From a virus, in IMG/VR virus record IMGVR_UViG_3300037293_000454, positions 1 through 26,972 of that record: a stretch of DNA of 26,972 bases; one strand, written 5' to 3'. A model generated the notes under the pieces. It made no database searches. It was not told the origin of the DNA and was given only the letters and a program-made list of their open reading frames with translations. Within the stretch, counting starts at the first letter, position 1, and the number at the start of each line of letters is the position of its first letter. Positions 2,461 through 25,883 of the stretch are shown in pieces. The translations under genes were made by a program, and so were the position numbers.

Positions 2461-2532
2461 CTGCTCAGCTGCTCAGCTGCTCAGCTGCTCAGCTGCTCAG
2501 CTGCTCAGCTGCTCAGCTGCTCGGCTGCTCGG
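2461..2532. repeat. 8-bp tandem repeat, nine units
   Basis: Seven exact copies of CTGCTCAG (2461-2516) are followed by two copies of the variant CTGCTCGG (2517-2532). On the minus strand the variant units encode the last residues of tail protein D, and the first CTGAGCAG unit supplies its TGA stop (2515-2513). Units of eight bases shift the frame on gain or loss, so slippage among the first units would alter the extreme C-terminus of D. The TGA in every later unit limits the change to a few residues. Confidence 0.9.
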
Positions 2533-3577
2533 CTGAGACGGAGCACCGATAGCCCGACGCGTCGATCGCATGGGTGACGCTGGTCACCAGCCACTCGCGG
2601 TCCACGCCAGGACGGAACCCCTCCAACAGCAGGCGCGACTCCGCGACCAGGTCCGGATCGCCGGGCAGGGAGATCGACAGCTTCAGGCCCTCGCGAGCGG
2701 AGCGATCGACCTCGCCCTGCGCCGCGCTGGTCGCGGCCTCCCTCGTCGGATAGCTGCGGCGCAAGCGCTTGGTTTGAGATCCCGACGCCAATATCTCATC
2801 GCCGCGCGCGCCGGCGCCCGCGATCGAGTTGTCAGATGCGTCGACGGTAACCTCCTGCGGGCCGCCCGCGACGGGATCCTGATAGGTCGCCACGACCTTA
2901 TCCACCAGCGGGCGCTGGCGCCCGGACATGCTCCAGCGGGTCACGTCGCCCGGCGCCAGCTTGATCAGCGGCATGGGCGCGCCCGACAGCGTCAAGCTCT
3001 CGCCGCGCGCCACGAAGATCAGGCGCCCGCCGCCGGGCTTGCACAGCGCGTCATGGTCCAGCGCGACACGGGTCAGCAGGCTGATGTCGCTCTCGTCCAG
3101 CTGGTCGAGGTGCGGCAGCGCGATGGCGCGCAGGCTTGCGGCGACAGCCGGCGCGAGCCCATTCTCGCGCGCGATCGTGGCGACCAGCGCGCCGATGGTC
3201 GTGCCCAGCGCCCAGCTGCGGCTGCGCTGCGCCGTCAGCGCGGAACGGCCCCCGGCGCTGGCGCCGCTGGTGCTGGCTGCCGCACGGAGCCGAAGCCGGT
3301 CAGGCGGCCCCTCGACCGACACCTCATCGAGCACGAACAGCCCCATCTCGCGCATGCGGCCGTCATAGCCCAGCGCGACGGAAATCTCCGCGCCTGCGGC
3401 AGGGATTTCGAGACGCTCTGCCGGCAGGTGGTCGGAGAGGATCAGATCCACCACGTCCGATTTCAGCCCAGCCTCATCGGTGAGGGTCAGCGAGATCAGC
3501 CGCGGCTCGATGACGGCCGTCACATCCTCGCCGTTGACCGTGACACGCAGCATCGGCCGCCAGAGCTTCACGACCAT
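2513..3577 (-). CDS. D: P2 gpD-like baseplate hub / late control protein D
   Basis: At 354 residues this matches the P2 D / Mu gp44 / T4 gp27 hub family (phage late control D). In the mature tail this protein forms the trimeric hub holding the spike at the baseplate centre. Family traits are the opening beta domain (MLRVTVNGEDVTAVIEPRLI), the segment with LVLDEVSVEGPPDRLRLRA-like content around residues 78-100, and the C-terminal WLVTSVTHAIDASGYRC segment typical of these hubs. It is last in the U-X-D order of P2. The ATG used here overlaps the end of X by ten bases; the next ATG (3553, MLRVTVNG) is an alternative start. The C-terminal codons and stop are made by an 8-bp tandem repeat. Confidence 0.92.
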   Translation of the reverse strand: MVVKLWRPMLRVTVNGEDVTAVIEPRLISLTLTDEAGLKSDVVDLILSDHLPAERLEIPAAGAEISVALGYDGRMREMGLFVLDEVSVEGPPDRLRLRAAASTSGASAGGRSALTAQRSRSWALGTTIGALVATIARENGLAPAVAASLRAIALPHLDQLDESDISLLTRVALDHDALCKPGGGRLIFVARGESLTLSGAPMPLIKLAPGDVTRWSMSGRQRPLVDKVVATYQDPVAGGPQEVTVDASDNSIAGAGARGDEILASGSQTKRLRRSYPTREAATSAAQGEVDRSAREGLKLSISLPGDPDLVAESRLLLEGFRPGVDREWLVTSVTHAIDASGYRCSVSAEQPSS

Positions 3578-6332: not shown

Positions 6333-6839
6333 TCACAGGCCCAGCGCGGCGCGAACAGCCGCCAGGCGATCCACCCCGCCGATCACGCGGATCATGTTCT
6401 CGATATCGATCTCGCAGATCGAAACGCCGTCGATCGTTTCGGCATAGTAGTCCAGCGCCATGGTGATCGTCAGGCTGGCGGCCTGCCCGGAGCCCCAGGT
6501 CCCGCGCGCGACCGCGGTGATCTTTCCGCGCATCGAATGCACGACCGCCTTGACCGTTCCGTCATAGCCCTCGATCGCGCCGCGCGCCGTGAGCGGAACC
6601 GCCTGCCCAGGCGCCAAGCCCCAATAGGAAAGCACATCGGCATCGTAGGAGATCAGCACGAAGCTGCAGGTCAGCGCCTCCATGCCCATCTCGAGCGCGA
6701 GCGGCGCGTCCATGCCGCCCGCGCGATAATCCTCGGTGACGATGGTCAGATCGGGCGCGTTGTATTCGGTCACCTGCCCGGCATAGCCACGCCCGTCGAA
6801 GGTGAGCGAGAAGTTTTTGAGAACGTCGCGAGCGGCCAT
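6333..6839 (-). CDS. FII: Contractile tail tube protein (gpFII-like)
   Basis: The 168-residue protein is the inner tail tube of the contractile tail. It opens MAARDVLKNFSLTFDGRGYA and keeps the P2 FII pattern of N-terminal beta strand, 'MDAPLALEMGMEALTCSFVL' centre, and the C-terminal ITMALDYYAETIDG plus EIDIENMI-x-RVIGGVDRL. I chose the ATG at 6839 because it overlaps the sheath stop (TGATG) and gives the family's normal N-terminus; a longer open frame upstream is noise inside the sheath gene. It stands directly after the sheath gene, as expected. Confidence 0.93.
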   Translation of the reverse strand: MAARDVLKNFSLTFDGRGYAGQVTEYNAPDLTIVTEDYRAGGMDAPLALEMGMEALTCSFVLISYDADVLSYWGLAPGQAVPLTARGAIEGYDGTVKAVVHSMRGKITAVARGTWGSGQAASLTITMALDYYAETIDGVSICEIDIENMIRVIGGVDRLAAVRAALGL

Positions 6840-8029
6840 CAGGCAAACACCTCCGAGATATACGTATTGACCAGATGCGAGCGGAACGTGATGTGCTCGG
6901 CCGGATAGGGCGGGGTGAAGTCGAAGTTGAAATAGACCTTGCCCAGCGCCACGTTCGCCGGGGTGTTCAGGTCCGGATCGGGCCAGCACTCGCCGCCAAG
7001 GATGGCGCCGAGAGCCTTGAGCGTGCGCAGGTAGGCGTTCACGCCCTCGGTCACGTCCTGCACATAGGTGCGGGTGATGTTCCGATCGACCGCCCAGAGA
7101 TGCGCGCGCTGCAGGCTTTCATTGATCAGGTCCGCGGTGCGCCGCACCGACAGGAACGTCCACTTTGAGTCGGCCGTCAGAGAGCGGTTGCCCCAGAGGC
7201 GGAACCCGTCCTGGCGAATGATCGTCGCGACGCGCGCCTCGTTCAACAGGTTGGCGCGCGAATTTGCATCCCCCAGCTTGAAATCGACCGCGCGGGTGGT
7301 GCCCACGATGCCGTTGATGACCTGGTTCGACGGCGACCACCAGAACCCGCGATCATTGTCGGATTTCGCGATCAGGCCCGCGACCCGCGCGGATCCCGGC
7401 TCCGACACAACCTCGCCGGCGGCGTTGAAGATCTTCACCCATGGGTCCACCAGATAGACCCGATCGGAGCCGAAGTCCCCAGCGTAGGTGATCGCGGCCG
7501 CGTCGGTGGTGTTGGGCCCATCGGCGATGATCACCGCGCGCAGCCGCTCGGCGATGCCCAGCAGCTCAGACACAACAGGGTTGGCCGCGCCTTCAGGGCG
7601 CTGGTGGGTCCAGCCCGGCGCGCAAAGGATCCGCGGCGCGAAGCCGACCACGCTCTCGGCGCCCAGCAGCGCCTGCACGCCCTCATAGGTTCCCGTGCCG
7701 GCAGCCACGCCTCCCACCACGTTCACCAGCGTGGCGGCCTCGTCCGCGCCGGCCTCGACGCGCACCACGATCACCACCGCGCCGATCTGGTCCATGATGC
7801 CGTCGAGCGCGCCGGGCAGCGTGCCCTCGCCGTCGCCGACCGTATCCAAGCCGGCGGCCTCGAGGCGCGATCCAGCGATCAGCACCGGCACGTTGAAAGG
7901 GAACAGCGCGGGGTCCGCGTCGGGCGCCGTGCCGACGATGCCGATCACACCGGAGCGCACGGTCCGGATCGGACGTGGCCCCGCGTCGATCTCAAGGACC
8001 TGAACGCCATGCAGGAAGGTCTCGGTCAT
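6839..8029 (-). CDS. FI: Contractile tail sheath protein (gpFI-like)
   Basis: This is the sheath subunit that contracts to drive the tube through the envelope. The protein of 396 residues starts MTETFLHGVQVLEIDAGPR, very close to the P2 FI opening. It contains the family segments VRSGVIGIVGTAPDAD, 'GFRLWGNRSLTADSKWTFLS', and the C-terminal ALGKVYFNFDFTPPYPAEHI. I chose ATG 8029 over ATG 8047 because it restores the family N-terminus and has GAGGG four bases upstream. An exact copy of the 18-bp dispersed repeat lies 62 bases before this start. It precedes the tube gene as in P2. The assignment is firm. Confidence 0.95.
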   Translation of the reverse strand: MTETFLHGVQVLEIDAGPRPIRTVRSGVIGIVGTAPDADPALFPFNVPVLIAGSRLEAAGLDTVGDGEGTLPGALDGIMDQIGAVVIVVRVEAGADEAATLVNVVGGVAAGTGTYEGVQALLGAESVVGFAPRILCAPGWTHQRPEGAANPVVSELLGIAERLRAVIIADGPNTTDAAAITYAGDFGSDRVYLVDPWVKIFNAAGEVVSEPGSARVAGLIAKSDNDRGFWWSPSNQVINGIVGTTRAVDFKLGDANSRANLLNEARVATIIRQDGFRLWGNRSLTADSKWTFLSVRRTADLINESLQRAHLWAVDRNITRTYVQDVTEGVNAYLRTLKALGAILGGECWPDPDLNTPANVALGKVYFNFDFTPPYPAEHITFRSHLVNTYISEVFA

Positions 8030-8060
8030 CGCGCCCTCGCTCATCAAAATCAGAATTCGC

Positions 8061-8094
8061 GAGGATCATGCAAGGCGCGCGCGCGGCGATCCTC
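8061..8094. repeat. GAGGATC inverted repeat beside dispersed repeat copy A
   Basis: GAGGATC (8061-8067) and GATCCTC (8088-8094) are exact inverted copies separated by 20 bases that are rich in GC steps. The right arm overlaps the end of the 18-bp dispersed repeat at 8091. The structure sits in the spacer before the sheath start and could fold in the mRNA. It is not shared by the other four repeat copies, so it may be incidental. Confidence 0.4.
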
Positions 8095-8108
8095 TGGCGG
8101 ATTTCCCG
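8091..8108 (-). repeat. 18-bp dispersed repeat, copy A (before sheath)
   Basis: This is one of five exact copies of CGGGAAATCCGCCAGAGG (minus-strand reading). It begins in the codon just after the TGA of the upstream 89-residue frame, in phase with that frame, and is followed by GAT. With its upstream flank (TGAGCGGG...) it is identical to copy B over at least 23 bases. The sheath start lies 62 bases downstream. The stem GCGG/CCGC with loop GAAAT can form here. Confidence 0.9.
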
Positions 8109-8109
8109 C

Positions 8110-8370
8110 TCAGCCGATCAGCGCGGCGACATCAGGGTTTTCATCGAGGAACGCCTGCAGCTTGGCGACAGGGTCGGGCTGCGTCGGCTCGCGCACGACA
8201 GCCCACGCCGCGCCGCTCCAGCGCGCTGCCATCCCCTCGGTCACCACGATCGGCGGAGCGACGGTCACGCAGCGCGCCGGGAGCAGGAACAGGCCCGGCT
8301 CGAGCGGCGAAGGCTCGGCATCGATCGAGCCGACATAAAAGCCCGCATGGTCGTGTTGATAGGCGATCAC
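8110..8370 (-). CDS. Small tail-fibre assembly-like protein
   Basis: This is a small protein (86 residues from GTG 8370; the frame stays open to another GTG at 8379). It begins MIAYQHDHAGFYVGSIDAEP and continues with SPLEPGLFLLPARCVTVAPP, a pattern I know from small phage proteins encoded after tail fibres and often annotated as tail-fibre assembly or DUF4376-like. It then has a Trp-rich 'ARWSGAAWAVVRE' segment. I prefer GTG 8370 because GAGGA lies nine bases upstream, whereas GTG 8379 abuts the same GAGGA. It sits immediately after the fibre gene as expected for a chaperone. A dispersed repeat follows directly after its stop in the same phase. Function is inferred mainly from position. Confidence 0.75.
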   Translation of the reverse strand: MIAYQHDHAGFYVGSIDAEPSPLEPGLFLLPARCVTVAPPIVVTEGMAARWSGAAWAVVREPTQPDPVAKLQAFLDENPDVAALIG

Positions 8371-8382
8371 CGCAGCCACTCC

Positions 8383-8406
8383 TCAAAATTTGATGCAGAT
8401 TATTCA
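8383..8406 (-). repeat. In-frame duplicate of fibre terminal codons
   Basis: The fibre gene ends TGC ATA AAA TTC TGA (Cys-Ile-Lys-Phe-stop). Two codons later, still in the same frame, comes TGC ATC AAA TTT TGA (8397-8383), again Cys-Ile-Lys-Phe-stop but with different third bases. C-I-K-F/Y is a common terminus of collar-type phage fibres. The second copy looks like the remnant end of an older fibre C-terminus. Confidence 0.8.
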
Positions 8407-9813
8407 GAATTTTATGCAGCTCAGCACTGCGACGTTGCGCGAGCGCGTCTCCGACCCTGAAAGCAATTGTTGATTGCCCGTGCCTGTGTCTCGGTTGTTC
8501 CCAGTGCCGCCGGTTAATGTTCCGGTGGTCAAATAATTGTGATTGCCGTCCGATCTCCGCGAAAAATAAGATCCTGACCATGCCCGCGAGATGAAGGAAA
8601 AATTGTCCTCGTTATCAGCCAAAAACTGCCCTGTGCCATGATAATGCGTTTGCATGTTGTGGCCCTGACCAGAGCCAAAAGCCCGACTGGAATCAATGCC
8701 GCGCCCATCATCCCATCCGCGCCGGAACTCGCCGCGCAGATCAGGAAGTCTGAAAGTGTTTACACCATCACCGTCGCCCCAGGCCGTCCCGATCGCGGCG
8801 AACAGCTCCGCATAGGCGACGCGGCCGACCGTGGCGCCGTTGCACTTCAACCACCCCGTGGGCGCCGTCGCCATGGCGAAGTCCATCAGCGCGCCCGCTG
8901 GGGTCCGCTGCTTGGTCGCCTCGATCGACAGCACGCCCAAATTTGCGCGCCCCAGCGCCTTGTCCGGAACGTCCGAAAGGTTTTGCGCCTGCAGGAGCGC
9001 GTCTGGCAGATCGGACGCCGGCTCGTTCTGCACCGCGATGATCTCGGATCCGGCATAGGCCTGTCCGAGATGCAAGCGGCTCGAGATCGAGCCATTGGGC
9101 TGCCATCCATCAGCGCCCGCCTTGAGCGGCAAGCGCAGCCCGTCGATATAAACCGCAAGCCCGGCGGTGTTGACGATCACCAGATCGACCTGCGTCTGCG
9201 CCGCGGCAAGCGTCTGAAATTCCTCAATGGTGGAGACGGTCACGTTCACATCGGTCGGATCCGCCCACTCGGTGTCGCCGCAGCCGTTGGTCGCCTTGCG
9301 CAGAACCTGCCCGGTGGTGCCGCCGGGAATGATGGAGCAGGCGTTTGCATTGTTCGCCACCCATGTCTGCGTCGCGATCGAGACATTGGGATCCACGACC
9401 AAGGTGATGACGGCCGCGTTCGAAACCTCGAACTCGACCCGCACCACGGTGTCAGCGAATGCGCCTTCGTTCGCCACCGGCTTGTAGGTTTCGGGCAGGC
9501 TTCCCACAACGAACAGCGTCCCGTTCGCATTGAACAAGCCGACCTCGCGCAGGGTGAACCCGCCCTCCGCCGCCGGGATCATCAGCTCTGCGGCGTAGGC
9601 GTTCGGGCGGCCCGATGGGTCGGGCTTGTAGACCCGATTGATGCCGGCGCGAAACCGCTCGCGCGCGAGCCCGGTCTGCTCGGGGTCCGGGATGACCGCG
9701 ACACCCAAGCCATCGCCGACCGCCATCTCGGTCAAATTAATCGGCACGCCCAGCGCTTGAGATTGAACGAGCGCCAGAAGCCCGGCCGTTGTGTGAATTG
9801 TGGCAAAGGACAT
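8404..9813 (-). CDS. Tail fibre with N-terminal DUF3751-like and collar domains
   Basis: The 469-residue protein is the side tail fibre, in the position of P2 H. Residues 1-150 match the fibre attachment domain of P2-like phages (TTAGLLALVQSQALGVPINL, 'GGFTLREVGLFNANGTLF'). A linker region follows. Around 305-365 there is a phage collar domain, visible as PAGALMDFAMATAPTGWLKCN then 'FRLPDLRGEFRRGWDDGRGID'. The tip (about 370-469) is Gly/Asn/His-rich, ends SCIKF, and is encoded by visibly AT-richer DNA than the N-terminus, a usual sign of host-range module exchange. The start has GGAG six bases upstream. Receptor specificity cannot be read from sequence. Confidence 0.93.
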   Translation of the reverse strand: MSFATIHTTAGLLALVQSQALGVPINLTEMAVGDGLGVAVIPDPEQTGLARERFRAGINRVYKPDPSGRPNAYAAELMIPAAEGGFTLREVGLFNANGTLFVVGSLPETYKPVANEGAFADTVVRVEFEVSNAAVITLVVDPNVSIATQTWVANNANACSIIPGGTTGQVLRKATNGCGDTEWADPTDVNVTVSTIEEFQTLAAAQTQVDLVIVNTAGLAVYIDGLRLPLKAGADGWQPNGSISSRLHLGQAYAGSEIIAVQNEPASDLPDALLQAQNLSDVPDKALGRANLGVLSIEATKQRTPAGALMDFAMATAPTGWLKCNGATVGRVAYAELFAAIGTAWGDGDGVNTFRLPDLRGEFRRGWDDGRGIDSSRAFGSGQGHNMQTHYHGTGQFLADNEDNFSFISRAWSGSYFSRRSDGNHNYLTTGTLTGGTGNNRDTGTGNQQLLSGSETRSRNVAVLSCIKF

Positions 9814-9848: not shown

Positions 9849-10388
9849 TCAGTCTGGCGGCTGGTAGGCGACGGTGATCTCCGTCCCCACGCCGGACCAA
9901 GCAGCCGCATATGGGCCCGCGAGGGTCCCGGCGCTGACCTCGATCAGCTCGAGGTGCGAGCGCAGCGACTTGGTCTGGTCCACGATCGCGACCGCAGTCT
10001 CGATCGCCTCAAGGGTCGCGGCGTTGGCGCCAGCCTCCAGCAGCAAGCGATAGGTGAACGGATCGCCAGGCGGCTGCTGGAGGTGCCACTCGACCACTTG
10101 CGCGACCATGCCGATCGAGCTCAGCGCAAGGCGCACCGCGCCGATGGTGCCCTTGATCTTCTGCACCGAAATCGCGTTGCGGATGCTCGTGCGCTTTTGC
10201 GCATCTGTCCAATCGGGGTCCCACTGATCGACCGAAAGGCTCCAGGCCAGCCACGGGAGAACGTTTCTCGGGCAGAGCTCCGGGCTCCAAACCTCGCGCA
10301 CCAGCGGATCAGGCGAGCCGATCAAGCTCATGACCTCGGCGACCGCGCGCTCCTGCTCCGTGGCATTGGAAGGAAGCAAATCAGACAT
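9849..10388 (-). CDS. I: Tail protein I (gpI-like baseplate protein)
   Basis: The 179-residue protein belongs to the P2 tail protein I family, a baseplate wedge component. It shows LPSNATEQERAVAEVMSLIG near the N-terminus, then the strongly conserved 'CPRNVLPWLAWSLSVDQWDPDW' region (about 39-60) and 'IRNAISVQKIKGTIGAVRLAL' (about 70-90). The C-terminal part resembles the variable fibre-binding end. It overlaps J by eight bases upstream and is followed by the fibre gene, matching P2 order J-I-H. Confidence 0.94.
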   Translation of the reverse strand: MSDLLPSNATEQERAVAEVMSLIGSPDPLVREVWSPELCPRNVLPWLAWSLSVDQWDPDWTDAQKRTSIRNAISVQKIKGTIGAVRLALSSIGMVAQVVEWHLQQPPGDPFTYRLLLEAGANAATLEAIETAVAIVDQTKSLRSHLELIEVSAGTLAGPYAAAWSGVGTEITVAYQPPD

Positions 10389-11280
10389 CCACGCCCCCGA
10401 TCGTCACTGTGACCGCGGTGCAAAATGCGGCCTCTCCATCGCCCATGACGATGCCCGCAGCCGGGCTCGCGAGCGCGACGTTTTGCACGCCCGCCTGATG
10501 CAGCGCGGCGTAGATGCCAGACAGGGTCACGTCATAGCCGAGCCGGTGCTGCGCAGCGGCATAGGCCAATGCCGCCTCTTCCGATGTGGCGCGGATGATC
10601 TCCGCGTCCGGGCCCGGATAGACGGTCAGCGCCGCCGTGATCTGGTATTCGGTCACGCTGGCGGATTGGACCACAACGGAGTCGGTCATCGGCCGCACGG
10701 TGTCGGCAGAGAGCACCGCGGCGACAGCGTCGATCAAATCGACGCTCGCCGCGCCCGAGCCCACGCGCGAAAGGACATAGATCGTCACCACGCCCGGCGC
10801 CGGGCTGACCGCTTCAGCGTCTCGAACCTCGGGGTCTGCGCCCAGCGCGTGGAACACATAGGATGCCGCCGACCCCGCGACCGTATAGGCCTCCGGGCTC
10901 AGCTGCACGCGCCGGCGCAAATCGGTGTCGCTCTCATAGATGGCAGGAACAGGCGGCACCGCCGCCGCGTCGCCAGGATCGAGGGTGAGCCGAGCGACAG
11001 AAAAATTCGCGCCGATCTGATCAAGATCCGCGCCGGCGGCGTAGGCCAGCATGACGGCGCGCGCCGCCTCGTTGATCCGCTGGCGCGTCAGCAGCGCGAC
11101 ATAGCTGGCGACCTGCATCGCCTTCATGGTCGGATCGCTCTCGACCAGCGCATCGAACTCAGGCGCGCGCGACACCAGATCCGCAAGCGCTGAGGCGAGG
11201 ATGTCCTCGAAGGAGATCTCATCGATCACATCGGGCGCAGGAAGCTGCGAGAGATCGACTGCAGTGAAAGCACCGGCCAT
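10381..11280 (-). CDS. J: Baseplate assembly protein J
   Basis: The 299-residue protein is a baseplate J family wedge protein (P2 J, Mu gp47, T4 gp6-like). Conserved traits include the N-terminal DLSQLPAPDVIDEISFEDIL, the 'AVMLAYAAGADLDQIGANF' segment (about 75-94), the DTDLRRRVQLSPEAYTVAG segment, and the C-terminal beta-alpha repeat 'YDVTLSGIYAALHQAGVQNV'. Its start shares TGATG with the end of W and it overlaps I by eight bases. These are tight couplings typical of the P2 V-W-J-I cluster. Confidence 0.95.
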   Translation of the reverse strand: MAGAFTAVDLSQLPAPDVIDEISFEDILASALADLVSRAPEFDALVESDPTMKAMQVASYVALLTRQRINEAARAVMLAYAAGADLDQIGANFSVARLTLDPGDAAAVPPVPAIYESDTDLRRRVQLSPEAYTVAGSAASYVFHALGADPEVRDAEAVSPAPGVVTIYVLSRVGSGAASVDLIDAVAAVLSADTVRPMTDSVVVQSASVTEYQITAALTVYPGPDAEIIRATSEEAALAYAAAQHRLGYDVTLSGIYAALHQAGVQNVALASPAAGIVMGDGEAAFCTAVTVTIGGVDV

Positions 11281-11618
11281 CAGAGAACCTCTATCCCGTC
11301 CACAGTTACCAGCTCGCCATCGGGCAGGTAGAGCCCGGCGATCGCCAGCACGACATGGCCAGGCGCCGCCTCGGTCGCGGTGACTTGCTGCACCACGATC
11401 CGCGGCTCCCAGCGCGCCAGCGCCTCGGCCGTCGCGGCGAAGATCGCCAGCATGGTCGCCGAATTCATCGGCGCATCCACCAGCTGATAGAGGCGCGAGC
11501 CATAGTCGCGCCGCATCACCCGCGTGCCGATCGGGGTCGTCAGGATATCGCGCACCGACTGGCGGAGGTGCGCGATGCCAAAGACTGGCTTTCCGGTGAT
11601 GGGGTTGGTGCCGTTCAT
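11280..11618 (-). CDS. W: Baseplate protein W (gp25-like)
   Basis: The 112-residue protein is a P2 W / T4 gp25 lysozyme-like baseplate protein. Evidence is the HLRQSVRDILTTPIGTRVMR block, followed by 'RRDYGSRLYQLVDAPMN', both diagnostic. The ATG at 11618 is the only usable start in the frame, yet no clear ribosome site precedes it. The codons between the TGA of V and this ATG are all sense and in frame, so only the single TGA separates V from W. A copy of the 18-bp dispersed repeat fills that spacer. Translation may therefore rely on coupling to V. Confidence 0.95.
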   Translation of the reverse strand: MNGTNPITGKPVFGIAHLRQSVRDILTTPIGTRVMRRDYGSRLYQLVDAPMNSATMLAIFAATAEALARWEPRIVVQQVTATEAAPGHVVLAIAGLYLPDGELVTVDGIEVL

Positions 11619-11650
11619 GCCGCGATCATGGCTGCGCGCGACGCTCGCAT

Positions 11651-11668
11651 CCTCTGGCGGATTTCCCG
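11651..11668 (-). repeat. 18-bp dispersed repeat, copy B (between V and W)
   Basis: This is an exact copy of CGGGAAATCCGCCAGAGG on the minus strand, beginning four bases after the V stop region (TGA GC...), in phase with the V frame, then GAT. It is 33 bases upstream of the W start. The stem GCGG/CCGC with loop GAAAT can form. The adjacent TGAGCGGG flank is shared only with copy A. Confidence 0.9.
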
Positions 11669-13217: not shown

Positions 13218-15680
13218 TCAAACCCCGTTTAGAATATCGCGCTGCGCGCCAAGCTCACCCCATGCAGCGGCGACTTGCTCAGCGGTCAATGCGCCCGATG
13301 AACCGACCGCGGGAAATATCCCGATGAATGCAATACTAGCGCTTGCTGTGTTACCGGAAGAGTCCGACAATAGCCGGGAAATTTTGAAAGTCGTTGTTGG
13401 TGAGGAAGAAAAGCCGCCGCCTCGCGATGCGTCCAAATCCTCATCCGTCCAAAGTTCGGCGCCATTATTTTCAGAAAATACCAGTCGCATCACATACCAT
13501 TGATCTGCTGATACAGTGGTGCCGTATGGACTCGTCATGAAAGTTGCGCCATATAAGGTTTTTCCAAAAACAATTCTTATATCTCCGTGACTACCCCTTA
13601 TCCAAAAATCCAAGTTTTCTTGGTTGCTCAAAAGTCTGCCGCTGCTTGGAGCCTGAAACAACACCCAAGCCTCACGCCCGCGCAAGTCTGTGTCTGCCGA
13701 GGCTTCGAGGTAGCCGCCACCAGCCCCGCCACCTTGAACATACTTTAGGCGGTTTGACGTTGCCACAGTAACGCCAGTTTCGGTGCCGCCATTTTGACGG
13801 TATGCGGCAAAATTATTGCCGGAAATGTCCAACCAATCGCCAACTTGCTGCCCATCAGTCTGCGAAAGCGAGTCCAGGTTGTTGGCGTCATGGATCCGTA
13901 TTGATGGGTATTCGTTCCAAAAATAATGATTACCATAAACCGCCAGCACATCCGCCGCCGCCGTCGCCGCCCCGGCCGCCGTGAAGTCGGCAGGGCTGGC
14001 AAGCTGACCGCCGTAAAGATGCGCCCCTGCGCCGCCAATTCGCAGAGTTTCTGCAATGGGCGCGTCATACCCAGCGCGAGAGGCGTTGACGACATTGCCT
14101 GCGGTGTCTCCTGACAGGGCAAGAAACAATCCGCCTGATCCAAGCGCGGCCGTGAAGCCAAAGACCTCATCGCGCGCCGGCAGAGCGCGGGAGATGCCGA
14201 TCGGTGCGGCGACGTCATCGGAGATCTCCACGCGCAGATCGTCGCCGATCACCTCGACGCGGAAATAGCCGCCGCCAACCGCAGCGGTTTCAACCACGCG
14301 GCCAGCGGTGATGCCAGCGGGCACCAGGATCGCCAGCGAGACGCCGACATAATCGACGGGCGGTGCCTCGGTGTAGGAATACTCCAGCGCAGATGCATCA
14401 TCGGCAAAGACCAGATGCGCCGTGCCGACAGCGCCAGGCGTGCGGGTCATGGTCCCGACGACCGTCGCCTCGATGCTGAGGTGTCCCGAAAGCAACACTT
14501 TGTCGACGCCCAGCTCATCGTAGAAGGTGGCATCAGTCTGGGGCGCCAGAGCATAAGCAGGTTCGAACCCGCCCGCCACCTGAGCCGTGAACGTCGCGCC
14601 GCCGCCAAGGTCGGTGGTGTAGGTGAACGCGGTGCTGCGCGCTGTTCCCAGCACGTCATAGGCGAAATCAGTGCCGGGATCGAACGTCGCCGCTCCATCC
14701 GTTCCGATCGTGAAAACGCCGCCGTTGCTGCCAGCGATGCTCGCCGCCCAAGGCGCGGCCGCCCCGTTGACCGATGCCACGCTGGTGGCGCTTGGGTCAT
14801 TGGAAAGGATGCTGATGCCGGTGACGATTGGCGTGGCCTCGCCGTTGCTGGCCTGAACCGAAATGCTCTCCGAGAACGAAAGCCGCAGGGTGTCGACAGT
14901 GCTGCGCAGCACGTCGATGAGCAGATTGACCTGAGTGTCAGTCGGAATGCCCAATGCGTGGGTGTAGACCAGCGCGCGGTTTGCGCGGATCGCCGTGCCG
15001 CGCGGCGTTCCTGTGGCGTCGCTGAACACAGAACCCATGAAGTAGGGCATGTTGGTCGGGTTGGTGCGAACCCCGCCATCGAAGGTGATCCGGTCCAGCT
15101 CCGCCCAGGGTCCGTTTCCGTCCAGACCGTGGCCAAACGAGCGGATGAAGGAATTTCCGCTTTCGGCTAGGCGCGCGTGGATCACATACCACCGATTGTA
15201 GGCATGCGTCTGAGCGCCGGTCCGATTGCCATCGTCTGCGCCGGTCTCGAAGATCTTGACCGTCCGCAGTCTGCCGTTGGAGAAGCCAAACCGACGATTG
15301 ACGACATCGCCCATGATGAAGGCTTCGCCACCAGTCTGCATCACCAGACCGAAGATGTCTGTTTTGCGGATGTCGAAGTTGCTGGCAGTGACCAGCCAAT
15401 CCGCATCTGCATCGTCGCCCTGGTCCACGCTCTGGAACCACGGGATTCCGTTGGTCGCTCCCACAGTCAAATGCCGCGCAGGGTTTGCTTGGGTGAACGC
15501 CGGAAGCCCCGATGCGCTGTCGTTGGGCAGGGTCTGCGTGCCGCCCGGCACAGTGACGATGCTGGCCGCGTTGTGGTCGCGAACCAGCTTGCCGCCAAGC
15601 GTGAGCTCGAACGGCAAGGATTGGCGAAGAAGCGAGCCGCTGATGAGATTGGACAGGAGCGACTGACGGATCAGGGCCAT
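13218..15680 (-). CDS. Large modular virion protein (LamG-like, VCBS-like domains)
   Basis: The 820-residue protein has no single known family. Residues about 60-260 and 630-810 look like concanavalin/LamG jelly-roll domains; typical phrases are 'YNRWYVIHARLAESG' and 'AWVLFQAPSSGRLLSNQ' with 'DQWYVMRLVFSENNG'. Between them, about 270-370, is a cadherin/VCBS-like domain ('SNGGVFTIGTDGAATFDPGT', FTYTTDLGGGATFTAQV), and 410-600 is another beta-rich section. Such proteins decorate phage particles and bind glycans. It lies between head-tail joining genes and tail genes, where a decoration or accessory fibre fits. The 3' end is clearly AT-richer (13561-13620 is one third G+C), as if the terminal LamG module came from a different source. 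The carbohydrate ligand is unknown. Confidence 0.75.
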   Translation of the reverse strand: MALIRQSLLSNLISGSLLRQSLPFELTLGGKLVRDHNAASIVTVPGGTQTLPNDSASGLPAFTQANPARHLTVGATNGIPWFQSVDQGDDADADWLVTASNFDIRKTDIFGLVMQTGGEAFIMGDVVNRRFGFSNGRLRTVKIFETGADDGNRTGAQTHAYNRWYVIHARLAESGNSFIRSFGHGLDGNGPWAELDRITFDGGVRTNPTNMPYFMGSVFSDATGTPRGTAIRANRALVYTHALGIPTDTQVNLLIDVLRSTVDTLRLSFSESISVQASNGEATPIVTGISILSNDPSATSVASVNGAAAPWAASIAGSNGGVFTIGTDGAATFDPGTDFAYDVLGTARSTAFTYTTDLGGGATFTAQVAGGFEPAYALAPQTDATFYDELGVDKVLLSGHLSIEATVVGTMTRTPGAVGTAHLVFADDASALEYSYTEAPPVDYVGVSLAILVPAGITAGRVVETAAVGGGYFRVEVIGDDLRVEISDDVAAPIGISRALPARDEVFGFTAALGSGGLFLALSGDTAGNVVNASRAGYDAPIAETLRIGGAGAHLYGGQLASPADFTAAGAATAAADVLAVYGNHYFWNEYPSIRIHDANNLDSLSQTDGQQVGDWLDISGNNFAAYRQNGGTETGVTVATSNRLKYVQGGGAGGGYLEASADTDLRGREAWVLFQAPSSGRLLSNQENLDFWIRGSHGDIRIVFGKTLYGATFMTSPYGTTVSADQWYVMRLVFSENNGAELWTDEDLDASRGGGFSSSPTTTFKISRLLSDSSGNTASASIAFIGIFPAVGSSGALTAEQVAAAWGELGAQRDILNGV

Positions 15681-17082: not shown

Positions 17083-19233
17083 TCAGGTCAGGTCGATGCC
17101 GCGGCAGAAGCTCTCGGCGCGGCGGAAAACAAAATCGACGTCTTGGAACATGGTGATGCGCAGGCGGCCCTTCTGGCTGAGGCTGTAGGGATCGACCAGA
17201 ATGTCGAGCCCGCCCCACATGCCGATCAGCGCATCCGCGAAGTTGCCGAAGAACGTCTCGCCAGACGCGATCTGGTTGGTGATCTCGGTCCGGTAGCCGT
17301 TCACGGTGTTCCCCTGCTCCCAGACGGTCGAGCCGGCCGCGCCCGCGAACTTCTCGGTGGTTTTCCAATGGCCGCGCATGCGCGCATCGGCGACGTAAGC
17401 CATGCTGTTCACGTCTGCGTTCGACGCGGAGATCTCCGTTTCCATCGCAACCACCTCGGCGAAGGTCGGCAGCAGCACGCCACCGCCCGAGCCGGCCCCG
17501 CCGAAATCGATGGTGGCGAGCCCGGACAGATTGCGCAGGCCAAGCGGCTGATTGGCCGACCCGGAGCCATAGAAGAACCCGCGATCGATGCCGATCGCGA
17601 GCGTGCTCGCGAGGTCGCGGCGCACCAGCCCCTCGATGTCGATCGAGGACTGCTGGAGCAGCTTGCGCGTGATCGTGCCATGAGCCGAAATGGTCTTCGG
17701 CGCCATGCTGACCTGATCCATGTCCAGCGCGGATTCGGTGGAGTCGGCGTCCTCATCCAGCCAATAGGCCGTGGCCCCGCCGGTCTGCCGCGGGATATCG
17801 ACGTTCCCGACAAGCCCGCCCAGCGGCGTGCCCAGCTGCATCGCAATGGTGCGATTGCGCAGCATCTCGACAAAGGATTCCGACAGCAGCTCGGTCGCGA
17901 TCGAGAACCCGCCGGTGTCGCCGGCAGCGCCGCCGGCGGTGTCGGTGTTGAGGGCGCGCATCAGCACCTCGGGCGGGATCAGCAGGCCCTTGGCCGAACG
18001 CCCCGACAGCCGCGCCCGCTCGGTCGCGGCCGAAACGAGATCGAGCTCGAGCGCGGCATGCCGCTGGGCCCGCGCGTCGGTCGGGTTGAAGGCGGCCTGA
18101 AACAGCCGCAGGAACCGGAAACCGTCCGCATCGCCCGTGGTCGCGCCAGCCGCGGCGTCGCCGGCCGCGAGCGGACGATTGCCGCCGCGCTGGTTGACGT
18201 GCGCCAGCAGGGCCCGCTGGAAGTCCTCCGGGCTCTTGCCGGTCTCGATGAACTGCGCCGCAAGCTCGAGCGCATCATATTCGCGGCCGAGCGTCATGAT
18301 CGCGGCGACGCGCTGCTGGCTGCGGCTCTCGCCCTCGCCGCGCGCGTGCGCCATGTCCGCGCCGGCTCGCTCGAGCACTTCGAGGATCTCGATGATCTTG
18401 CCGGCATCGTCCACCTTGGCCCGAACGAGGTTGCCCTCGGCGTCGCGCAGGATTTTGGTATTCATGGTGCGGTCCTCGTTGACAGCGCGCGAGGCGCCGG
18501 GGTTGGCTGTTGCCTCATCCTCGCCGACCGCCGGCTCGCGATCCTCTGGCGGATTTCCCGGCGCCGGTGCGGCGCGCCCCACGCCGACCGAGGCGTCGGC
18601 AGGCACGCTCACGATGCTGATCTCGTAAGGGGTCCACTCGGTCACGCGCACCAGGTCGGACATGCCATTGCGCGGCGTGATCTCGATCTTGTCGATCGAA
18701 TAGCCGACCGAGACGTGCTTGCGGATCCCGTCGACCACGTCCGCGAAGATCTCCTCCGCGCGCGCCGATCGACCGAAGCGCACCAAGGCGCGCCCGATCC
18801 GGTCCCCATCGATCCGCGCGCTCTCGATCACGCCGACCTGATTTCGATGGTCGTGGTCGACCAGCAGCGGTGCGCCGCCATCGAGCCGATCCGTGCGCAT
18901 CGCGCCGGCATCGTGCACCAGCACCTCATCGCCGAACCACCGATCGACAGGCGTCTCGGACGAGAACGCCAGCTCGACGGTGCGCGCCGCCTGGTCGATC
19001 GAGCGCACCTCGCCGTGGCGCACCAGCGGCTCGGTCGCGCGGCGCGCCGTGATCTGCGCGAGGGTCGCCGATCGCTGGAAGCGGCCGCCGACGATCATCA
19101 CCCCGCGCGTCTGGTCCTGCGCCGGCCGCATGCATGCCTCGCGGTCCTTGCCGCCCTCGGCGCGGATGGCCTCGGCGTTGGATGCAGGCGAGGCTGCAAG
19201 CGCAGGCGCGTCGGTCTCAAGGTTGCGGTGCAT
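17083..19233 (-). CDS. Fused prohead protease - major capsid protein
   Basis: The 716-residue protein joins two head proteins. Residues about 30-205 are an HK97-type (S78) prohead protease: RSIDQAARTVELAFSSETPV, the 'LLVDHDHRNQVGVIESARID' block containing the candidate catalytic His, and YEISIVSVPADASVGVGRA. A Pro/Ala/Glu-rich linker (about 208-256) contains GNPPED, encoded by the dispersed repeat. From Met257 comes a helical scaffold-like delta region (to about 390). An HK97-fold capsid follows: 'GGFSIATELLSESFVEMLRN', 'NVDIPRQTGGATAYWLDEDA', 'GSGSANQPLGLRNLSGLATI', and the end DVDFVFRRAESFCRGIDLT. The protease normally cleaves off the scaffold after prohead assembly. The ATG overlaps the portal gene by 17 bases. 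An internal ATG with a good ribosome site (18465) may also yield capsid protein alone. Confidence 0.93.
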   Translation of the reverse strand: MHRNLETDAPALAASPASNAEAIRAEGGKDREACMRPAQDQTRGVMIVGGRFQRSATLAQITARRATEPLVRHGEVRSIDQAARTVELAFSSETPVDRWFGDEVLVHDAGAMRTDRLDGGAPLLVDHDHRNQVGVIESARIDGDRIGRALVRFGRSARAEEIFADVVDGIRKHVSVGYSIDKIEITPRNGMSDLVRVTEWTPYEISIVSVPADASVGVGRAAPAPGNPPEDREPAVGEDEATANPGASRAVNEDRTMNTKILRDAEGNLVRAKVDDAGKIIEILEVLERAGADMAHARGEGESRSQQRVAAIMTLGREYDALELAAQFIETGKSPEDFQRALLAHVNQRGGNRPLAAGDAAAGATTGDADGFRFLRLFQAAFNPTDARAQRHAALELDLVSAATERARLSGRSAKGLLIPPEVLMRALNTDTAGGAAGDTGGFSIATELLSESFVEMLRNRTIAMQLGTPLGGLVGNVDIPRQTGGATAYWLDEDADSTESALDMDQVSMAPKTISAHGTITRKLLQQSSIDIEGLVRRDLASTLAIGIDRGFFYGSGSANQPLGLRNLSGLATIDFGGAGSGGGVLLPTFAEVVAMETEISASNADVNSMAYVADARMRGHWKTTEKFAGAAGSTVWEQGNTVNGYRTEITNQIASGETFFGNFADALIGMWGGLDILVDPYSLSQKGRLRITMFQDVDFVFRRAESFCRGIDLT
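18463..18477 (-). promoter_or_regulatory. Internal ribosome site and start for separate capsid protein
   Basis: Within the protease-capsid frame, GAGGA (18477-18473) lies seven bases before an in-frame ATG (18465-18463). Translation from here would give a 460-residue scaffold-capsid protein without the protease. It begins MNTKILRDAEGN, directly after the variable linker, exactly where a stand-alone capsid gene would start. Confidence 0.65.
18543..18560 (-). repeat. 18-bp dispersed repeat, copy C (protease-capsid linker)
   Basis: An exact copy of CGGGAAATCCGCCAGAGG lies within the linker of the protease-capsid fusion, read as GNPPE then Asp. It is 78 bases before the internal capsid start. 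The preceding codon is CCG rather than GCG, which breaks the outer pair of the GCGG/CCGC stem seen in copies A, B and E. Confidence 0.9.
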
Positions 19234-21412: not shown

Positions 21413-23398
21413 TCACCATGAATTCACCCAGCCTTTGCGCGCGCGCTTGCGCGGGTCCACCCGTGGGGCGCGTTTTCGGGGTGGCGGCGTGGGCTCATCA
21501 TCGGGCAGGGCAGGCGCCGCATCCTCTGGCGGATTTCCCGGCTCCGGCTTGGGCGCGCCAGGGCGCGATCGGGCTGCAGCTGGCGGAGCCGGCGCGGCGG
21601 CCGCCGGCTCCAGCGACATCAGCCGCGCGACAGAACGCGCAATGTTGGGGTTCAGGATCTTGAGTGCCGCGTGCGCATAGACCCGGCAGTCCAGCGCCTC
21701 GTTGCGATCGCGGGTGTTGTTCCACTCGCGAACTGGAAAGCCCTTGATGTAGCGGGTCACCAGCCGCTCCGCGGTCAGCTGGTGGAACCATTCAGGCTCG
21801 CGGTCCGCTGGGAAATGCATGAAGCCCGGGCCCGGCATCTCTACCGCGAGACGGCGCTGCAAGATCAGCTTCGCGCCGTCCACGCCGAGAATGAACAGGT
21901 CGATCGCACGGCCGCGGCGGCCTGACTTTTTGCGGCTCGGCGCTGAGACGATCGGCCGACCCCAGCCGCCCATGCCTTTGATCGCGAACACCCGCCGCCC
22001 GATCTTGCCGCGCGCGTATTCATAGGCGGCCTGCGTGTATCCCGATCGACCGCCGGTATCGAGGCAGGCCGACACGATGCCGAGATGCGCGCCGCTCTCA
22101 TGCCGCCAGGTCTGCGCCAGCAGATCGTCCAGCGCCGCCCAGACCTCGCCGGCCAGCGGATCGCCCCAGAGCACATGATACGCGATCGACCAGCTTTCCT
22201 CGCCCAAGCCCCAGCCGACCACCTCGACCTCGAGGCGATCCTCCTGCATGTCGACGCCCGCCGTCAGGATGGCGGCGCCTTGCGGCACCGGCGCCGCATA
22301 GTCCTCGGCGCGCGTCATCAGCCCGGACGCATCAGCCTGCGCGCCCGCTTCCTCCCAGGTCTCCGCGAGCGAGACGTTGATGAACGTCTGCATGTCGTTC
22401 GCGGCGCGCTTGTCGAGGAAGCTCTGCACGATGTCGCGCAAGGGCCGAAAGCAGCTGTAGAGCTCGGAGAGGTGATAGCTGGCATGGCCGCGGAACGGGC
22501 GTGCGGCCACCCACACGCCGCCGCGGATCGCCGCGATGCGCTGGCCATCATTCCAGATCGACCCGCAGGCCGCGCAGGCATAGCCGGCCGTCTCCGGCAG
22601 GTGCTCGCCCTCGGCATCTTTGGACCACAGCACATTCGACCATTTGAGCGGCTGGCGCTCCGCGCAGTCCGGGCAGGCGACGTGAAAGTGCCTGCGATCA
22701 CCTTGGTCATAGGCGCTTTCGATCCAGCTCACGCCCTTGATCGTGGGCGTGCTGATCTCCATCAACAGGCGCTGATCGCCAAAAGTTGCCGCGCGCTGCC
22801 ACAGCAGCCCGACAGGGTGGCCTTCGGACGTCCGGTCGTAGCCGTCCGTCTCGTCGCAGACGATGAAGGGCGCCGATCGCCCGCGCATCGTCTTTGCGGA
22901 TCCTGACCAAGAGAACATGATGAAGCCGCCGGGATAGGACTTCATGCGCTGATTGTTGACGCCCTCGCCGCGGCCGCCTTCGTGGAGGACAGCCTTCAGC
23001 GAGGGGTTCGCCTCCACCATCGGATTGAACTTCGTCTCGAGCCACGTCAGCAGATCGCCCTGAGACGGCTGCATCATGATCTGCGATGTCGGGTCCTGAC
23101 CGATGCGGAACGCCTGCGCGCACAGCGCCAGCATGGTCTTGCCGACCTGTGCGCCCCACATCAGCGAGACCCGCGTGCAGCGCGGGTTCGACGTCATGTC
23201 CAGCGGCTCTCGCTGGTAGGGCGCATTATCAAAGCGGATCGGGCCGGGGATCGCGTTGCCCAGCGAGATCCGCACGTTGCGCTCGGCCCATTCAGACGGC
23301 AGCAGCTCGGGCGGCGGGCGCAGCATCTGCGCCGCGCGGCGCACGGCGCCCGCCACGCCGAGCGGGTTGCCGAAGGTGTTCGGATCAGGCCGCTGCAT
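21413..23398 (-). CDS. Terminase large subunit (lambda gpA family)
   Basis: The 661-residue protein is the GpA-type packaging ATPase/nuclease. An ATP-binding Walker A-like WGAQVGKT lies at 81-88 and an acidic Walker B site at 'FIVCDETDGY' (about 178-187). A paired-Cys motif follows (CPDC and CAAC, about 240-275), then the nuclease half with 'ILTAGVDMQEDRLEVEVVGW' and ACLDTGGRSGYTQAAYEYAR. It docks at the portal and pumps DNA into the prohead. The C-terminal 70 residues are Pro/Ala/Arg-rich, contain the dispersed-repeat GNPPED, and look non-catalytic. The start overlaps the small subunit gene by 14 bases. Confidence 0.96.
   Translation of the reverse strand: MQRPDPNTFGNPLGVAGAVRRAAQMLRPPPELLPSEWAERNVRISLGNAIPGPIRFDNAPYQREPLDMTSNPRCTRVSLMWGAQVGKTMLALCAQAFRIGQDPTSQIMMQPSQGDLLTWLETKFNPMVEANPSLKAVLHEGGRGEGVNNQRMKSYPGGFIMFSWSGSAKTMRGRSAPFIVCDETDGYDRTSEGHPVGLLWQRAATFGDQRLLMEISTPTIKGVSWIESAYDQGDRRHFHVACPDCAERQPLKWSNVLWSKDAEGEHLPETAGYACAACGSIWNDGQRIAAIRGGVWVAARPFRGHASYHLSELYSCFRPLRDIVQSFLDKRAANDMQTFINVSLAETWEEAGAQADASGLMTRAEDYAAPVPQGAAILTAGVDMQEDRLEVEVVGWGLGEESWSIAYHVLWGDPLAGEVWAALDDLLAQTWRHESGAHLGIVSACLDTGGRSGYTQAAYEYARGKIGRRVFAIKGMGGWGRPIVSAPSRKKSGRRGRAIDLFILGVDGAKLILQRRLAVEMPGPGFMHFPADREPEWFHQLTAERLVTRYIKGFPVREWNNTRDRNEALDCRVYAHAALKILNPNIARSVARLMSLEPAAAAPAPPAAARSRPGAPKPEPGNPPEDAAPALPDDEPTPPPRKRAPRVDPRKRARKGWVNSW
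21523..21540 (-). repeat. 18-bp dispersed repeat, copy D (terminase tail)
   Basis: An exact copy of CGGGAAATCCGCCAGAGG is in frame in the Pro-rich tail of the large terminase, read as GNPPE then Asp. The preceding codon is CCG, as in copy C. It is 115 bases before the start of the gpW-like gene. Confidence 0.9.
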
Positions 23399-25466: not shown

Positions 25467-25883
25467 TCAAAACGCCTCTGGCGGATTTCCCGCAGCCAAG
25501 ACCTTGCGAACCACGTCCTGAGCCGCCTCGACGCGTTCGGCGATTTCTGCCGAACTGAGCCCGGCGCGCGCAAGGGCGTGGATCACCCGATCCCGCCACG
25601 CCCGCGCGACATGACCGCAATTCGAAGGCTGCAGGATCTCGCCACCGAACCACCGGCGCAGCTTCTCAGCGTCATGCCACCCCATGAGGCGCACCAAGGG
25701 ATGATCAGCGCGCATCTTCTTGGGAATGTAGAGAACCCGTCGCCATGGGCGCGACCCGGAGCGCGGCAGGCTCCCGATCAGAAACAGCGTCCGCTCTCGG
25801 CCGATCACATCCGCAATCTCCTGCGCGCTTGGGTGGAGCGGCACATGGCGCGATGGGCTGACGTGGATCATGCAGGCGCCCAT
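25467..25883 (-). CDS. Mor-like transcription activator
   Basis: The 138-residue protein (from ATG 25883) resembles Mor/C family activators of phages. It has an N-terminal dimerisation-like part, the 'RVLYIPKKMRADHPLVRLMG' region and WHDAEKLRRWFGGEILQPSN. A C-terminal helix-turn-helix follows in 'RDRVIHALARAGLSSAEIAE'. Mor proteins activate middle or late phage promoters. The longer frame upstream, from a TTG, crosses a hairpin and operators, so I reject it; a TTG at 25892 is also possible and start evidence is weak. The last residues AAGNPPEAF include dispersed-repeat copy E. Position between replication and lysis genes supports a switch to late expression. Confidence 0.72.
   Translation of the reverse strand: MGACMIHVSPSRHVPLHPSAQEIADVIGRERTLFLIGSLPRSGSRPWRRVLYIPKKMRADHPLVRLMGWHDAEKLRRWFGGEILQPSNCGHVARAWRDRVIHALARAGLSSAEIAERVEAAQDVVRKVLAAGNPPEAF
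25475..25492 (-). repeat. 18-bp dispersed repeat, copy E (end of Mor-like gene)
   Basis: An exact copy of CGGGAAATCCGCCAGAGG forms the last codons of the Mor-like gene (GNPPE then Ala-Phe-stop), in the same phase as the other copies. Here GAT is replaced by GCG. The next start (25413) is 62 bases downstream. Confidence 0.9.

Follow-up and report, generated by a model that had tools for sequence, protein, structure and literature searches.

The tail-fibre genes of P2, Mu, P1 and lambda-type phages have reportedly evolved as mosaics, and the joins in these mosaics are usually clean or made by an invertase. Relaxed homologous recombination leaves traces at the borders of recently exchanged phage fragments (De Paepe et al. 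2014, PMC3945230), and in natural phage populations near-identical core genomes carry strongly diverged, interchangeable fibre variants (Bellas et al. 2020, PMC7468147). Both fibre-gene mosaicism and recombination at the borders of exchanged segments are established (PMC3945230, PMC7468147). In addition, 1.8-kb in-frame tandem duplications of variable number were seen inside the tail-fibre gene of EfV12-phi1 in evolution experiments (PMC6365445).

Here we analysed a viral record of 26,972 bases (IMGVR_UViG_3300037293_000454; this whole stretch of DNA is called the window), in which a Pfam profile search found P2-like tail genes and whose sheath-based relatives include prophages of Alphaproteobacteria. 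As in the P2, Mu, P1 and lambda-type mosaics, fibre tips are swapped between conserved flanks and a fibre-associated gene lies next to the fibre gene; unlike in those phages, full extra 3′ ends persist after the gene, in varying number. Compared with De Paepe et al. (PMC3945230), the locus holds a stacked repeat and not a simple mosaic border, and no recombinase was identified. Bellas et al. (PMC7468147) describe pools of variants, not repeated termini, and the term 'tandem repeat' is absent from their text. Variable-number duplication at a fibre gene is common to our locus and EfV12-phi1 (PMC6365445), but here the repeats are ∼20 bp long and follow the stop codon. In the open-access literature that we searched, we met no description of fibre ends repeated behind the stop.

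A second terminus behind the fibre gene

The gene of the host-recognising tail fibre (positions 8404–9813, minus strand) encodes 469 amino acids. It matched PF12571 (E = 1.6e-43) and PF07484 (E = 5.2e-22), both beyond the curated cut-offs, as well as the tail protein family PHROG 327 (E = 3e-88); the N-terminal tail-collar fibre domain covers residues 2–149 and the Collar domain residues 307–363. The minus-strand sequence around the gene end runs GTG CTG AGC, then TGC ATA AAA TTC TGA, the codons ATA ATC, TGC ATC AAA TTT TGA, GGAGTGGCTGCG and GTG ATC. The live terminus (copy 1, C-I-K-F-stop, 8404–8418) is followed by the spacer ATAATC (8398–8403, 6 nt or two codons), which is also found in the relatives L002, L004 and L032 and is absent from the single-copy relative L003, and then by the second terminus (copy 2, 8383–8397), at the matching place of which L003 ends. 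The original prediction of C-I-K-F-stop occurring twice in frame, two codons apart and with differing codons, was confirmed by this reading, and its interval (8383–8406) holds all of copy 2 and of the spacer, but just the stop codon of copy 1. The two copies agree in 13 of 15 bases, both mismatches being synonymous and at third positions, and when the 60 nt downstream were shuffled a match this good arose in 9 of 200,000 trials (4.5e-5).

The stop of copy 2 overlaps TGAGGAG (8379–8385, minus strand), the Shine-Dalgarno sequence of the next gene, 8 nt before the GTG at 8370. Many relatives end in CIK[FYI] and a stop that is followed directly by the ribosome site of the next gene, commonly as TGAGG, and single-copy relatives usually show such an overlap of stop and ribosome site. 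Within the array, this TGAGGRG overlap alone is clearly constrained. Copy 2 as a ribosome-site motif conserved in unrelated phages, which the original prediction had named as its counter-explanation, was rejected: no more than the TGAGG overlap is common, the remainder of copy 2 being absent from the other phage fibres examined.

The next gene (8110–8370, minus strand) encodes a small tail-fibre-associated protein (PHROG 1807 and 1766, tail fibre, E = 6e-7 and 2e-4), which by its position is of the assembly type. The ORF lists begin this gene at 8379; its likely start is instead the GTG at 8370, because the counterpart in the more distant phage L335 begins ATGATC at the equivalent place. The tail sheath gene (6839–8047, minus strand; PF04984/PF17482), which served as the anchor for finding relatives, comes next, so that the order on the minus strand is fibre, small fibre-associated gene, sheath. 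Between the last two lies one of five copies of a 20-nt element, GGGAAATCCGCCAGAGGATC (8088–8107, 11648–11667, 18540–18559, 21520–21539 and 25472–25491, minus strand; 0.02 expected). All are on the coding strand, between and inside genes, where the element translates as GNPPED; variants such as GGGAAAACCGCCAGAGGAAA are found in related phages, in many cases 50–85 nt before the sheath gene, and the element may be a phage regulatory site. A further repeat, the octamer CAGCTGAG, is present in about seven perfect units at 2453–2543 and spans the stop of a baseplate-hub-like gene (2513–3577); in L003 and L032, which lack this array, the gene ends SAEQPN-stop and the DNA downstream then differs.

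As far as we searched, stacked ends are confined to one small clade. Two IMG/VR scans for a doubled C-I-K-[FY]-stop, which may leave out the window's own record, returned only L002, L004 and L032 besides nine low-complexity or unrelated matches, and no doubled end occurred in any of 397 genomes from a related bacterial family; the possibility that doubling is a general property of collar fibres was rejected on these grounds. Downstream of the fibres examined outside the clade there was no second end, the best match being 10 of 15 bases. Within the window and four close relatives, no other copy of the terminus with up to two mismatches was present on either strand except for one weak two-mismatch match in L032, which looks like chance. 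In the window and the four partial relative contigs no invertible cassettes or inverted crossover sites of the Gin, Cin or shufflon type were found, and the 20 largest direct-repeat families of the window included no long near-copy of the tip that could be the template repeat of a diversity-generating retroelement.

Terminus haplotypes and tip exchange in close relatives

The sheath search gave four close relatives, L002, L003, L004 and L032, with sheaths 99% identical; the clade sample is thus five contigs with four haplotypes, the relatives being partial metagenome contigs. Four repeat units account for all the ends: A (TGCATAAAATTCTGA plus ATAATC), B (TGCATCAAATTYTGA plus GGRG), C (TGCATCAAATTCTGT plus AAATC) and D (TGCATTAAATTCTGA plus AAATC). 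L003 has B alone (TGCATCAAATTCTGA GGGG, i.e. TGC ATC AAA TTC TGA GGGG), the window has A-B, L002 and L004 have A-C-B (TGCATAAAATTCTGA ATAATC TGCATCAAATTCTGT AAATC TGCATCAAATTCTGA GGGG) and L032 has D-A-B (TGCATTAAATTCTGA AAATC TGCATAAAATTCTGA ATAATC TGCATCAAATTCTGA GGAG). A fibre that ends at the second copy, as the original prediction had anticipated, is therefore exactly what L003 possesses. Unit A is live in the window and in L002 and L004, but in L032 it is buried behind a live D. The isoleucine codon of the live end is ATC in L003, ATA in the window and L002, and ATT in L032. All base differences among the copies fall at third codon positions, including the L002 stop changed to TGT; this fits copies that had once been real gene ends, although the pattern alone does not tell imported ends from ends that were duplicated locally and then drifted.

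B adjoins the ribosome site in every haplotype and is the sole copy in L003. The outgroup L335, which was found through a search with the next gene and has the L003 type of tip, also has a single end. As L003 and L335 are both single-ended and every additional copy is found upstream, the one at the ribosome site is most simply the original, and copy 2 of the window is probably the original fibre end.

The last part of the fibre (residues 364–469, 8404–8724, minus strand) is an AT-rich, exchangeable tip together with the conserved end. Its AT-richness had been claimed from the outset and was borne out: the GC content is 53.6% (GC3 0.58) in the tip and 64.8% (GC3 0.81) in the upstream fibre. ATA is a rare isoleucine codon (12 of 395 across 27 genes), and 8 of the 12 occurrences are in two AT-richer genes; ATA in the live copy and the AT-rich tip are compatible with a donor of different, AT-rich composition for the tip and end of the window. 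Elsewhere, among the tail and baseplate genes, an 820-amino-acid protein (13218–15680) has no PHROG match and a GC3 of 0.67, below that of its neighbours; it is possibly another exchanged, adhesin-like gene.

A 60-column identity profile separated three tip alleles, one in the window, one in L002 and L004 and one in L003 and L032. The alleles are only 32–66% identical over about 240 bases, while their flanks are about 84–100% identical, and such a diverged tip inside closely related flanks reads as mosaic exchange of fibre tips among these phages. The type of tip seen in L003 is also carried by L032 and, at a greater distance, by L335; a search for phages with the tip of the window found only relatives of 39–43%. 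In the single genome L179 (G367) two fibre-like stretches lie close together, 62% over the whole fibre and 38–39% over collar and tip, and they may represent two fibre genes or else a spare tip.

Tips and termini do not travel as one. L003 and L032 have near-identical tips, including an identical stretch, and identical DNA over the ∼100 nt that begin with the start of the next gene. The two differ, however, in a patch that comprises the last ∼30 coding bases, the array and the ribosome site. Judged from this alignment, the terminus has undergone replacement of a short patch. Conversely, the window and L002/L004 have different tips and yet a common live terminus and first spacer, which means that exchange of a tip need not add an end. 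As two tips have one terminus and one tip (L003, L032) is found both single-ended and triple-ended, the terminus/array patch moves independently of the tip. Just upstream of the fibre gene (window 9850–11300) L032 has baseplate J and I genes strongly diverged (about 40–70%) from those of the other close phages, which makes a large mosaic border, with sheath and fibre still in common; given this difference, these phages recombine often.

How the ends may have been stacked

We lean, with somewhat better than even confidence, towards the explanation that out-of-register recombination at the conserved terminus, in part linked to tip exchange, stacked one fibre end after another upstream of the original one. 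Each copy in the array would then be a 3′ end that the fibre gene has had in turn, with the copy at the ribosome site the oldest, and newer ends would have been placed upstream of it by recombination at the conserved ...NVAVLSCIKF-stop, the putative right-hand border of fibre-tip exchange in these phages. Only the first copy would be translated; the remaining copies, untranslated and harmless, would for this reason persist and be free to expand or shrink. The alternative that we take most seriously, though we think it the less probable, is tandem duplication, whether through slippage during replication or through unequal crossing-over, in which the last ∼20 bp were copied in place and tip exchange had no role. 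The upstream copy would have remained live and drifted synonymously, the downstream copies would have become untranslated, and the array would then have expanded and contracted. The units are indeed 20–21 bp long and head-to-tail, C and B of L002 are identical over 14 nt, and the CAGCTGAG array at the end of gene 2513–3577, present in the window and missing in L003 and L032, means that gene ends in this phage do undergo slippage. The order of copies expected from recombination would also result if the live end had been duplicated repeatedly and had drifted synonymously. However, slippage in its simple form should have copied the preceding GTGCTGAGC, whereas the actual spacers are ATAATC or AAATC, and the isoleucine codon has three forms (ATC, ATA and ATT) though the neighbouring coding bases, CGCAACRTCGCAGTGCTGAGC, are nearly identical. 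Since the spacer (AT..AATC) is missing from the single-copy L003, the unit is no simple duplicate of the DNA at the site, and the absence of both spacers, ATAATC and AAATC, from the single-copy locus favours import. Counting against recombination, copy number does not closely follow tip exchange, the clade is known from only five contigs, and our searches revealed no donor with unit A or D as its single end; a query with unit A (ATCTGCATHAAATTYTG) for a free source gave matches too unspecific for use. Moreover, both ends stay whole only if the junction lies immediately 5′ of the TGC in the recipient, which for the first event implies misaligned or illegitimate recombination. On balance, recombination at the conserved end seems to us the likelier origin, and slippage a lesser but substantial possibility; we infer that the first duplicate was made by recombination rather than local copying and that some stacking events coincided with replacement of the tip.

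Could the repeat instead be functional, a regulatory or recombination site (coupling control, a terminator or a recombinase site) of which several copies are maintained behind the fibre stop? The array lies between the fibre and its downstream partner gene, and its copy number would alter how far the next start lies from the fibre stop (0, 21 or 41 nt extra). Yet RNA folding of the array was no better than that of shuffles (z 0.27 to 1.39) and no terminator-like site was present at it, for which reasons an RNA structure or terminator was rejected; in addition, the unit recurs nowhere else in the five contigs save for the weak match in L032. With no folding signal, no terminator-like site and a close relative, L003, that does without extra copies, a function is improbable. 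Chance or an assembly artefact is less probable still: the second copy is short and the relatives are metagenome contigs, but the shuffle frequency speaks against chance, and separate contigs with different repeat numbers, together with the same three-copy array in L002 and L004, speak against an artefact.

A trace of fibre mosaicism

The doubled end had originally been read as the scar of a replacement of the fibre tip by recombination at the conserved end. The different tips between common flanks in the close relatives agree with that reading. A single scar from one replacement does not, as the copy number is one, two, three or three across the haplotypes, and the tip and the terminus/array patch move separately, so that a tip may be exchanged with no copy added. 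The proposal is thus partly supported, correct in kind and too simple: we see a series of stacked ends that were exchanged partly independently of the tip. More speculatively, the stack may be a stratigraphic record in which each replacement of the fibre end adds a full terminus upstream and so preserves the order of past live endings; we regard this as rather doubtful, but if true it could serve to count the exchanges that have taken place in natural phage populations and to put them in order.

The significance we attach to the stacked endings is modest: they are an unusual trace of the known mosaicism of fibres, an evolutionary scar and not a new machine or system. Mosaic borders in phage genomes are normally visible only as abrupt changes in similarity, but here countable leftovers remain, and relatives with single, double and triple ends allow one to ask how, how often and how cleanly fibre tips are joined.
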